In this document: in pieces, positions 32,512 through 36,659 of the stretch
Position numbering within the stretch: position 1 is the first letter of the stretch
How the letters are laid out: every line of letters begins with the position of its first letter
DNA from: Pseudomonadota bacterium
Lineage (GTDB): Bacteria; Pseudomonadota; Gammaproteobacteria; Burkholderiales; Burkholderiaceae_C
Assembly (NCBI GenBank): GCA_021812315.1
Contig: JAKANU010000002.1
Location: forward strand, 1-39,153
DNA length: 39,153 bases
Reading direction: 5' to 3'
The notes under the pieces: generated by a model
What the model saw: only the letters and a program-made list of their open reading frames with translations
The model's database searches: none
What the model was told of the DNA's origin: nothing
Translations under genes and position numbers: made by a program

Positions 32512-32552
32512 GGCGGTTTCTTGGTGCGGCGCGGTCAACGGCCGACTACAGG

Positions 32553-33362
32553 TCAGGAGGGAGTCAACATGGCGACTTTATCAGGCCCGGGCTCGGGCTT
32601 GGCTGGCAGGGCGGGTGCCGCCACGGTCTGAACCGTCACCAAGGGCACTGTCTGCCCCTTGGCTACCAGTTGCAGACGCGCGCGCTCTGCCATCACCTTG
32701 TCGGCATAGCCCCCGTCGTCGATTCCCGTCGCGCCGACGTAACAACGCAGGCCGCCCTCAAGCGTACCGGCGCGTTTGACGCATTCCTGCAACACGCTGG
32801 CGCCGACGCGCAAGTTGGTGACCGGATCGAAGGCGGCAAATTTGCCGCCAAAACTCTCGTATTTGTCGCTGTGAACTCGTGTCATGACCTGCATCAAACC
32901 TTGCGCGCCAACCGGACTCTGTGCGAACGGGTTGAACCCGGACTCCACGGCCATCACTGCCAGGATCAGCGTCGGGTCCTGTCGATTGCGCTGGCCGATC
33001 TCGTAAGCCTCGGTGACCAGGACACTCAGCGGCTCCGGCGCAACGCGGTATTTCCGGCTCAGCCAGTAGGCCAGTGCGGCCTGCTGCCGGGGGAGGTCGC
33101 GTGGGTCACTTGCGGTGGCGCGGTCAACTGAATCCATGCCGCTGTTCCATCCACTCACGGCAGCCTGGCGCGCTTGCAGCCAGCTGATGAGTTTGACTTC
33201 ACCGCCCTGGCGCAGGTCCGGACGCACGGCCAGCATGATCGCCGCGAACATGACCACGAGTCCAACCACGGCAAGGCCACTGTGGGTTACTTCAAAGAGG
33301 CCTTGGGCGACATCGGATGCGAAAGTTCGCAGCCCCAGGGTAAATTTATTCGACGCTGTCAT
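32553..33362 (-). CDS. Lytic transglycosylase (SLT domain), membrane-anchored
   Basis: TM near N-term; [41 protein letters not shown]...; ATG at 33362 after gaagagct. Confidence 0.88.
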
Positions 33363-33536
33363 AGCTCTTCCTTCTTCGGCGGGGCGCACCAGTGGCCGGC
33401 TGGCGTAGGTGGCACCTCGTTTGGGTTGGTACGCTATCAATATCCTGCCAGGGTTCCATGGATGGGGCAGAGATTTGAATATGCCGGGTTCGGCAGCGGG
33501 TTCGGGTAATCCCTTGGCTATGCCAAAGGTGCGCGG

Positions 33537-33566
33537 ATTCTAGGTTGACTTTATATATCAAGTCAA
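33537..33566 (-). promoter_or_regulatory. Predicted sigma70 promoter for the transglycosylase gene, embedded in a palindrome
   Basis: Minus strand TTGACT-N18-TAGAAT; the -35 lies in the 9-bp-arm dyad GGTTGACTT-tatatatc-AAGTCAACC (33543-33568). Confidence 0.5.
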
Positions 33567-33601
33567 CCATATCAAATGCAAGTATTATTCATAAAGAAAA
33601 C

Positions 33602-33630
33602 TTGAATTCAGTTCTTGGCGTGTTTAAACT
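33602..33630 (+). promoter_or_regulatory. Predicted sigma70 promoter of a candidate ncRNA / DUF349 leader
   Basis: TTGAAT-N17-TAAACT in an AT-rich stretch; predicted TSS about 33637. Confidence 0.5.
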
Positions 33631-33636
33631 GAAAAT

Positions 33637-33850
33637 GCCCGTCACGCGACGGGCGTAGCGCCGGCAGTAGCCAGTCCCTACCTCAGGGTAGCTGTGATGA
33701 AGCGGCCCCGGCGATTCATGGAGGCAATCTTTTGCCATCCAGCACGGCGGGACCTTACCCTCCAGTCGTGCGAACCAAGACAGCATGGACCTCGTGTTCG
33801 CTGTCGAGCCCGGCGGCACGGCTTGAGGCCAACCGACCGGGCTTTTGTCT
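33637..33850 (+). ncRNA. Candidate structured small RNA of about 210 nt, or long 5' leader
   Basis: Successive hairpins: GCCCGTC-acgc-GACGGGC (33637-33654); CGCCGG..CCGGCG (33659-33713) enclosing CTACC-tcag-GGTAG; TGGA-GGCAA-tctt-TTGCC-a-TCCA (33719-33741); GCACG..CGTGC (33742-33771); GACAGC..GCTGTC (33779-33805); then a terminator with T-rich tail. Confidence 0.45.
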
Positions 33851-33854
33851 TATT
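33808..33854 (+). terminator. Intrinsic-terminator-like hairpin ending the candidate ncRNA
   Basis: GCCCGG...CCGGGC followed by TTTTGTCTTATT. Confidence 0.5.
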
Positions 33855-33896
33855 AGTTGCCCGCCGACAAAATTTGCGGCGAAAATGTCCCTTTGC

Positions 33897-33926
33897 CCCG
33901 ACCGGCCTCTGGTCGGGTTTCGTTTC
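33897..33926 (+). terminator. Second terminator/attenuator-like hairpin, about 30 bp before the DUF349 ATG
   Basis: CCCGACC-ggcctct-GGTCGGG followed by TTTCGTTTCC. Confidence 0.5.
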
Positions 33927-33947: not shown

Positions 33948-36659
33948 ATGTTCCCCTTTGCTGCCACCCCAAAAGCCCCGGAAGTCCCGGAAACCACACC
34001 CGTTTCGGCCAGGGCAGTGGAGGCCCATCCCCTCGACGAATTGACAGGTGGCGCGTTTTCAGCGCCGACCTCGGGTGAGCGAACGGCGCGGATCAGGGCC
34101 TGGCTGGCGGGTGCGCCGGGCGTGGAACAGATGCAGATGGTCTTCAAGGAGCTCAGCGTCAAGGACAAAGGTGCCTCGAAACTGTTGCGCGAACGCCTTG
34201 ACGAAATCAAGCGCAGCCGCGGTCAGGCGAGCCTGGCCAACGAATGGGCTGAAAAGGCCGCTGTCCTGCTGGCCCTGCCCAAACTCAATATCGCCGATGC
34301 GATGGCCTGGCAGCGTGACGCCGCGAAGGCCGGCGCGCCGCTGAGCAAGGAGCCGCTGGCGGCGCTGCGCGGCCAGCTCAGCGAGCGCGTGCGATGCATT
34401 GAAGACTTGCAACATCGCGTCCAGGTTCAGCGCGAGGCCGCCGTGCTGCTGGCCCAGCGCATTGAGGTGCTGTCGACCAAGTCCTGGCGCGACGCGCAAG
34501 GGGTGGTTGATTCGCTGCGAAGCGACGTTGAGCACTGGCAGGCGCAGGCGAGGCAATTGTCGGACGACGCCAACTGGCCCAGCGTGGACAGCAAGTTCCC
34601 GCCTCTGCTGGAGGCTTCGCGAGCCCAGTTGCTGGTGGTCTGGCAAGCCTTCAGCGACGCGCTGGCGCAGGCCAGTGCCGCGGCAGACGATGCGGCGGCG
34701 GCGTTGCCTGCCGTTCCGGTCTGGGCCGATGAGTTGCGCGCTGCGCGCGGTCTGGCAGGCGAGGCGGCAGCCAAGCCCAAGCGGCCTGTCGTTGACCCTG
34801 AGCTCAGGGCCCGGGCCAACAGCAGCGTGCGTGAGGTGTTGTCGGTCCTGGAGAAGGAAGTGGCGCAGGGACACGGTAAGGCCAGCACGGGTGCGGCCTC
34901 GGCGTTGCGCAACGCATTGAAGGAATACGGCAGACTGATTGACACCCAGCTCGACGCGCAGGCACACGCGGCACTGGCAGCGGCGGGTGAGCTTGAGGGT
35001 TGGCAGCGCTGGCGTGCGGATCAGTTGCGCGAGGAACTGGTGACCAAAGCGGAAGGCTTGCTGGCGCGCCCGCAAGGGCAGGCGATCGGCGGAAGAAAGA
35101 TGCAGGAGAACTTGCGCGCCCTGCGTGAACAGTGGAAGCAGACGGACCAGGGAGGCGTTCCCAATCACGGGCTGTGGAAGCGCTTTGACGATGCGTGCAA
35201 CGAGGCACACAAGGTGGTCGAGGCCTGGCTCGAGAAGATCCGGGCGGAGGCCGCGGAGCACCGGGCACAGCGATTGGCGCTGATCGGGGAAGTCAATGCC
35301 TGGGCTGCGGCCAACCCCGTGGCACTGGACGATGACTGGAAGGGTTTCAACCGCATCCTGCATCAGTTCGGCGAGCGCTGGCGCGACGGCGGGCACGTCG
35401 GTGAGAAGGCTTTTGCCGAGTTGCAGCCGCTGTGGATGGCCGCCATCGAGGCGGCGGCGGCGCCGCTTGAGGCGATGCGAGAGCAAAGTCTGATCAAGCG
35501 TCAGGCGATGATTGAAGAGGCGCGATTGCTTGGCGAGGCCGCGCAGTTGCGCATCGACGCAGTCAAGGCGCTGCAACAGCGCTGGCAGGCCGAGTCGCAT
35601 TTTGTACCGATGGAGCGCCGCCAGGAGCAGAAGCTCTGGGATGCGTTTCGCAAGCCGCTTGATGAGGCGTTTAACCGCAAGTCGCAACAGCGTCAGCAGG
35701 CCGAGGCGGCCCTGGGCGAGCGCGACCGGGTTGTCCTCGAAGCGGCCCGGGCTCTGGAGCAGGCCAACAGCTCCGGGGATGCGCAAGGTATTCGCAGCGC
35801 CATGCACGCGCTGGAGGCCGCGCTGCGCGGACAGGCACAGGCGCAAGCCGCGGTGCTGGCCGCTGGGGAGCCCAATTCTGGGGATGATTCGTCGCCAGAG
35901 CCCGCAGCCAAAGCGAACAATGCTCCGGAAGTTGTAGCACAACAGGCCCCGGACGAGGCCGGCGCGGGCAGCAACACGCCGCCGCCGGCACCGGCCAAGC
36001 CGGCGGCGCGCCCGGTGGTGGCGGTACGTGGCGATGATCGCCCGGGGATGCAAAGGAGCGAGCCCGTGCCCGCGGATCGGGCACGCCGTGACGGCAAGCG
36101 TGACAAGTCCCGAGGCGCGCGCGAAGAAGTCTTTACGCCCGGCAGGCCAGCGTTGGCCCGTCGCGACGGGCGTTTGTCGCCGCGCGCCGAATTGCCGCGC
36201 CTGAGCGAGCCGGCCTTTCGGGCCCAGCGTGATGCGCTCGAACATGCCCAGTCGACCTTGCGCAAACTTGCTGCGCAGGCCCACGGCGAAGCCTTGACTG
36301 TGTTGCTCGAAGCTTGGGAAAAGCGCGATGCAGCGCAACTTCCATCGGCGCAGGCATTCGGCGCCCAAGTACCTGCGGCGACCCGCAACGCCTGGCTCAA
36401 GGCCTTGGGTCAGAGGCCGGGGGCCGACGCCGGGTCCGCCCTGCTGCGTCTGGAGATGGCCGCGGAGTTGCCGACCCCTGCAGAATATCTCCAGGCGCGG
36501 CGCGCACTGCAGTTGCAGTTGTTGACGCGGCGCAACGATCCGTCGCCGGCGCAAACCTGGGCTCAGGACGTGAGCCAGGTGCTCTCCAGCGAGTTTGATC
36601 CGGTCGCTGCTCGACGCTTGCAAAACGTACTCAAAGTGCTTTTCAGATCCCCCGCGTGA
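33948..36659 (+). CDS. DUF349 domain-containing protein
   Basis: ATG at 33948 (MFPFAATPKAPEVPE...); DUF349-like repeats such as LREQWKQTDQGGVPNHGLWKRFDDACNEAHKVVEAWLEKIRAEAAEHR; track start 33732 lies inside the structured leader and is unlikely. Confidence 0.85.
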   Translation: MFPFAATPKAPEVPETTPVSARAVEAHPLDELTGGAFSAPTSGERTARIRAWLAGAPGVEQMQMVFKELSVKDKGASKLLRERLDEIKRSRGQASLANEWAEKAAVLLALPKLNIADAMAWQRDAAKAGAPLSKEPLAALRGQLSERVRCIEDLQHRVQVQREAAVLLAQRIEVLSTKSWRDAQGVVDSLRSDVEHWQAQARQLSDDANWPSVDSKFPPLLEASRAQLLVVWQAFSDALAQASAAADDAAAALPAVPVWADELRAARGLAGEAAAKPKRPVVDPELRARANSSVREVLSVLEKEVAQGHGKASTGAASALRNALKEYGRLIDTQLDAQAHAALAAAGELEGWQRWRADQLREELVTKAEGLLARPQGQAIGGRKMQENLRALREQWKQTDQGGVPNHGLWKRFDDACNEAHKVVEAWLEKIRAEAAEHRAQRLALIGEVNAWAAANPVALDDDWKGFNRILHQFGERWRDGGHVGEKAFAELQPLWMAAIEAAAAPLEAMREQSLIKRQAMIEEARLLGEAAQLRIDAVKALQQRWQAESHFVPMERRQEQKLWDAFRKPLDEAFNRKSQQRQQAEAALGERDRVVLEAARALEQANSSGDAQGIRSAMHALEAALRGQAQAQAAVLAAGEPNSGDDSSPEPAAKANNAPEVVAQQAPDEAGAGSNTPPPAPAKPAARPVVAVRGDDRPGMQRSEPVPADRARRDGKRDKSRGAREEVFTPGRPALARRDGRLSPRAELPRLSEPAFRAQRDALEHAQSTLRKLAAQAHGEALTVLLEAWEKRDAAQLPSAQAFGAQVPAATRNAWLKALGQRPGADAGSALLRLEMAAELPTPAEYLQARRALQLQLLTRRNDPSPAQTWAQDVSQVLSSEFDPVAARRLQNVLKVLFRSPA

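Follow-up and report, generated by a model that had tools for sequence, protein, structure and literature searches.

A Conserved Structured RNA of Comamonadaceae with a Possible Role as a Protein-Binding Regulator

Results and Discussion

A Predicted RNA Gene Adjoining a Lytic Transglycosylase Gene

In the window examined (the whole 39,153-nucleotide stretch of DNA that was analyzed), a divergent gene for a lytic transglycosylase with an SLT domain occupies positions 32553-33440 of the minus strand (longest ORF; Pfam PF01464, E = 1.1e-17). A gene for a DUF349 protein begins with an ATG at 33948 on the plus strand and extends to 36659 (PF03993, E = 1.9e-14). Between these two genes, a noncoding RNA (ncRNA) gene is predicted on the plus strand at 33636-33850, whose product would be ~210-215 nt long if its ends are correctly placed by its promoter and its terminator. 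The DNA adjoining the transglycosylase gene is best viewed as this RNA gene rather than as an empty intergenic stretch.

The RNA is preceded by a sigma-70-type promoter (33602-33630, plus strand) with a -35 element TTGAAT at 33602-33607 and a -10 element TAAACT at 33625-33630, separated by 17 nt. These elements had been proposed in an earlier reading made from the sequence alone (hereafter the sequence-only reading), and they can be read directly at these positions. The promoter is aligned across homologs in the genus of the window. Likewise, the arrangement TTG-N19..21-TANNNT ending 5-12 nt upstream of the 5′ hairpin is present in 81 of 100 homologs versus 1.6% in shuffled upstream sequence, and the spacing between the -10 box and this hairpin is mostly 5-6 nt among the homologs listed. 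Scoring the upstream sequence simply for its best promoter gave no separation from shuffles; the fixed geometry between promoter and hairpin alone distinguished the two.

The sequence-only reading had also described about 210 nt of hairpin-rich sequence ending in a terminator, and this segment resolves into six hairpins (P1 to P6), the last of which is the intrinsic terminator. The wider interval that it had assigned to the locus, 33537-33926, contains the RNA proper on the plus strand (~33636-33850), whereas the left end of the interval (33537-33566) is the promoter of the divergent transglycosylase gene on the minus strand. This promoter (TTGACT-N18-TAGAAT, 10/12) is conserved in the genus and lies outside the RNA. 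A further hairpin that had been noted between the RNA and the DUF349 start codon is real. It comprises 9 bp at 33897-33917 (plus strand, -16 kcal/mol), and is located outside the RNA, 3′ of its terminator and 30 nt before the DUF349 ATG. Next to it, a candidate DUF349 promoter (TTGCCC-N18-GAAAAT) can be proposed at 33857-33886 on the plus strand.

Within the genus of the window, the gene that follows the RNA is DUF748 in one locus (L012) and DUF349 in the others (L003-L011 and L013). Judging from gene order, this difference is a local gene loss or rearrangement. Genus members in which DUF349 comes next conserve the candidate DUF349 promoter, which is absent from L012, where the 9-bp hairpin has also been lost.

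Six Hairpins Whose Pairing Is Maintained among Homologs

All six hairpins are formed by the plus strand, and in aligned hits from across the family the order of elements is promoter, 5′ hairpin P1, a variable P2, P3, P4, P5, and terminator. The 5′-terminal hairpin P1 (33637-33654) has the sequence GCCCGUC-ACGC-GACGGGC (-14.6 kcal/mol, z = -3.95), and 3 of its 7 pairs carry compensatory changes in an alignment of 12 sequences. P2 (33660-33712) is a long, irregular hairpin that is nearly invariant in the genus, where its unpaired stretches AGUAGCCAGUC and GUGAUAAAGCGGC are conserved. Across the family it is variable, being lost or shortened in many members, and in the window sequence P2 alone folds no better than shuffles (z = -0.74).

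The most conserved element is P3 (33720-33739), which conforms to GGnnGCAAU(C/A)NNUUGCnnCC. Among 98 divergent sequences, its 8 pairs are 98.9% paired with two-sided changes at 4 of them, and its first G, G8, AAU, and UU, which are mostly paired positions, are invariant in all 98. P4 (33742-33771) is built on a GGGAC...CUCC core. Its inner stem is 89.4% paired in the same 98 sequences, with two-sided changes at 3 of 3 pairs, and its outer stem shows an A-U/G-C exchange in the 12-sequence genus alignment. The loops or arms of both P3 and P4 are rich in C and U (UCUC, CUCC). P5 (33779-33805) has the form GAC(A/G)GC...GC(U/C)GUC with an internal loop, and is 99.5-99.7% paired with two-sided changes (98 sequences).

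The terminator, P6 (33807 to ~33850-33855), consists of a stem and a U-rich tail, AGCCCGGCGG...CCGACCGGGCUUUUGUCUUAUU (-24.3 kcal/mol, z = -3.2). Its stem is 96.3% paired in the 98 sequences, including switches from G-C to C-G, and its U-rich tail is usually interrupted (UUUCUUGUUUU). When hairpins of the window sequence were folded singly, P1, P3, P4, and the terminator each proved to be well beyond shuffles.

The predicted 223-nt transcript folds with -101 kcal/mol compared to -82.9 ± 5.0 kcal/mol for shuffles (z = -3.6), and the 12-sequence genus alignment, evaluated with RNAalifold, yields -86.5 compared to -39.3 ± 4.3 kcal/mol for column shuffles (z about -11). Covariation across the family was assessed on 25 core pairs in a sequence-only MAFFT alignment of 98 divergent copies. 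Standard pairs fill 96.9% of the core pair cells, and two-sided changes are found at 16 of the 25 pairs. Such changes account for 186 cells versus 52 ± 7 in shuffles, a count reached by 0 of 500 shuffles, and thus covariation among relatives is present beyond chance. Sliding the pairing partners by 1-3 columns lowers pairing to 33-56%, although this control somewhat favors the structure because the same alignment had served to derive it. In addition, the pair tables contain far more G-U exchanges than A-C exchanges, which identifies the plus strand as the strand that folds. On the basis of these patterns of base change, the locus is a conserved structured ncRNA whose folded shape has been preserved by evolution.

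Distribution within Comamonadaceae and Absence from Rfam

Soil, fresh water, and the surroundings of plants abound in Comamonadaceae, among them Variovorax, Acidovorax, Rhodoferax, Polaromonas, and Curvibacter. Homologs of the RNA were located by blastn in 11 of 36 sampled relatives from the genus of the window, where they are 75-83% identical and lie beside the same transglycosylase gene. A covariance model of the core (R1), made from the 12-sequence genus alignment and trained on this genus only, matches 89 of 301 family genomes, and across 399 genomes drawn from the order it finds family members only. A second covariance model (R2), made from the 98 divergent copies, matches 166 of 400 family genomes, representing 60 of 126 sampled genera. 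Loci were fetched for 14 family members that are found only with R2 and lie outside its training set, and in 11 of these the RNA resides beside the transglycosylase gene, which independently validates the model.

Outside the family but within the order, R2 gives only weak matches (E = 1e-4 to 4e-3), which are unsupported because the transglycosylase gene is present in none of the fetched loci. Apart from these, the homologs found across the order are confined to one family. A pattern scan of named genomes returned 89 stretches. All titles among them that bear a genus name point to Comamonadaceae (Rhodoferax, Variovorax, Curvibacter, Hydrogenophaga, Ramlibacter, Polaromonas, Acidovorax, Diaphorobacter, Xenophilus, and Hylemonella), and the remainder are metagenome-assembled genomes. 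The RNA is present as a single copy in nearly all genomes. No copy was detected in some family genomes rated 99-100% complete, a result to be read with the tendency of fast filters to lose weak matches. A plasmid collection contained no match to the RNA, and the core pattern was not matched in viral contigs. By these genome counts, the RNA is characteristic of Comamonadaceae and is carried by at least 60 genera.

A scan against the 4227 families of Rfam 15 gave no match in the window at the gathering threshold and none at relaxed thresholds. The same scan of 20 distant homologs returned only a ZMP/ZTP riboswitch, located on the side of the transglycosylase gene that faces glyA. The sequence-only reading, which could not assign the RNA to a known class, is borne out on this point. 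In the literature searched (subscription papers and preprints lay outside the search), we found no earlier description of an RNA regulator that fits. We conclude that the RNA is a new family among structured bacterial ncRNAs that is absent from Rfam 15. Being single copy, nearly invariant in its core, and present in at least 60 genera, the RNA offers a directly testable candidate for a regulator at the family level, as well as a model for genome annotation.

A Possible Protein-Binding Mode of Action

The segment at 33636-33850 almost certainly represents a genuine ncRNA gene with its own promoter and terminator, rather than a chance folding. The proposal of a small RNA gene, which had been one of two offered by the sequence-only reading, is supported by the promoter, the terminator, the covariation, the more than 100 homologs, and the lack of an Rfam match. 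We predict that transcription of the gene yields a short, stable RNA, with P1 protecting the 5′ end and the terminator hairpin protecting the 3′ end. The product would be a regulatory RNA that presents its P3-P5 core to a protein partner, and this partner would be sequestered or guided by the RNA instead of the RNA pairing with an antisense target. For the full description, namely an independent, trans-acting, highly structured ncRNA that offers its P3-P5 core to a protein and does not act as an antisense RNA, we judge the chances to be about even.

The pattern of conservation is what suggests protein binding as the main mode, a suggestion that might prove right or wrong with equal ease. Within the core shared by the family, unpaired columns with at least 90% conservation never form runs longer than two. 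Because the core has no conserved unpaired stretch and most of the invariant P3 bases take part in pairs, recognition by a protein is favored over antisense pairing. However, two features speak against the protein-binding proposal. The unpaired stretches of P2 that are conserved at the genus level could be an antisense seed, and the CU-rich sequences of P3 and P4 could pair with ribosome-binding sites.

These features would suit a base-pairing sRNA, dependent on Hfq or ProQ, that represses or activates mRNAs via P2 or via the CU-rich loops of P3 and P4. In size, promoter, and terminator the RNA matches a classical sRNA, and the U-rich tail, the UCUC and CUCC loops, and the patchy presence in the genus point in the same direction. 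Indeed, trans-encoded sRNAs that depend on Hfq or ProQ and carry C- or CU-rich loops resemble the Comamonadaceae RNA in size, promoter, terminator, and organization as a stand-alone gene. Unlike them, the Comamonadaceae RNA lacks a conserved unpaired seed in its family-wide core and has its conservation concentrated in stems. Moreover, the hairpin that could supply a seed, P2, is dispensed with or abbreviated in many members, and the tail is usually broken. We consider base pairing a possible but doubtful main function.

A more specific form of the protein-binding proposal can be put forward only tentatively. Perhaps the RNA is a global regulator specific to Comamonadaceae that works by binding a protein, much as 6S and CsrB do but without being related to them, and is recognized through the invariant GCAAU(C/A)NNUUGC hairpin.

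Genes Downstream of the RNA

The most constant neighbor of the RNA is the divergent transglycosylase gene, which lies upstream in 175 of 189 loci (some genomes are counted twice). Among the 189 loci, the first gene 3′ of the RNA encodes either DUF748 (AsmA-like) or DUF349 and is always co-oriented when found, and in longer loci the RNA is followed by DUF748 and then, ~4 kb further, by DUF349. That a co-oriented gene follows in nearly all loci argues against an independent gene. Together with the strong terminator that ends the RNA, this arrangement would be expected of a cis-acting 5′ leader (an attenuator or a riboswitch) of a DUF748/DUF349 operon for which premature termination is the ground state. 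The sequence-only reading had offered as its other proposal a long leader that controls DUF349 through tandem attenuators.

Several observations run counter to a leader function. The two alternative first genes are unrelated, and DUF349 directly follows the RNA in part of the family only, rather than being a constant associate. In three genomes of one genus (g85), the RNA resides at another site (L074, 2943-3063; L076, 3015-3134; L079, 2920-3039), and these copies are matched by R1 with E values of about 1e-9 to 1e-10. In the two g85 loci with genes listed, a coding region precedes the RNA and the gene that it faces is convergent, so that no co-oriented gene lies directly 3′ of the RNA. The genes around the relocated RNA of L074 encode an acyl-CoA dehydrogenase and a cytochrome c, the latter being the convergent gene. 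Furthermore, the RNA is missing beside the transglycosylase gene in four members of the genus of the window, of which three clearly keep DUF748 there.

The change of the next gene, the relocation, and the absence of the RNA where its neighbors are kept indicate that no particular downstream gene is required by the RNA or invariably found with it. On these grounds the DUF349 leader is abandoned. Likewise, no competing antiterminator was seen in the consensus structures, and DUF349 has a separate candidate promoter 3′ of the RNA. A cis-acting leader of either gene is therefore improbable, and comparison of the loci makes it very probable that the RNA acts in trans.

Comparison with Known RNA Classes

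A dual function, in which the RNA would in addition code for a small peptide, is very unlikely. GC-rich DNA will always offer some short ORFs, but no conserved ORF exists in the RNA (each of the six frames has a stop in at least 56 of 100 homologs), and base pairing governs how the sequence changes. The earlier remark that the region carries no recognizable protein agrees with this finding.

It is extremely unlikely that models have missed a divergent housekeeping RNA of the 6S, SRP, RNase P, or tmRNA class. Although the RNA is highly structured, single copy, and family-wide, 6S RNA lies beside zapA, SRP RNA occupies a separate locus in the six relatives tested, neither the window nor the 20 distant homologs produce an Rfam match for this RNA, and some nearly complete genomes yield no copy.

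Among these classes, 6S RNA (ssrS, RF00013) is similar in being ~180-220 nt long, single copy, structured, and transcribed from its own promoter. It acts on a protein, as we propose by inference for the Comamonadaceae RNA. However, its rod with a central bubble and paired ends is absent from the Comamonadaceae RNA, whose consensus structure strings separate hairpins together instead of forming a closed rod. The 6S model, named as a check by the sequence-only reading, falls short of its threshold at the locus and gives no match there even at E values up to 10. The true 6S RNA lies beside zapA in the genome of the window (C236) and in most relatives tested.

The CsrB, RsmY, and RsmZ RNAs also present tandem hairpins that end in an intrinsic terminator, and offer a functional analogy for the sequestering of a protein. 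In contrast to them, the Comamonadaceae RNA lacks repeated GGA in hairpin loops and has no Rfam match. The RNA does not display the several ANGGA motifs in hairpin loops that mark a CsrA/RsmA-sequestering sRNA; its GGA sequences are located in stems or at stem edges. The RNA is most at home among the orphan structured ncRNA motifs collected in Rfam, whose kind is defined by conserved structure, and differs from them in lying outside the 4227 families of Rfam 15.

No tRNA or tmRNA is present at the locus, nor is there a match to SRP RNA (RF00169), which is encoded at a separate locus in 6 of 6 relatives tested. SRP RNA was not found in the 428-contig draft genome from which the window derives, which is probably an assembly gap.

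Two further observations concern the transglycosylase gene. The ZMP/ZTP riboswitch on its glyA side is present in 10 of the 20 relatives scanned and appears to be missing from the window, where no riboswitch was found in the gap between the two genes (32538-32553) and the reading frames are only ~15 bp apart. At its other end, a near-perfect inverted repeat at 33542-33568, GGTTGACTT-N8-AAGTCAACC, lies over the transglycosylase promoter. Genus members conserve one half, AAGTCAACC, and the repeat is possibly an operator.
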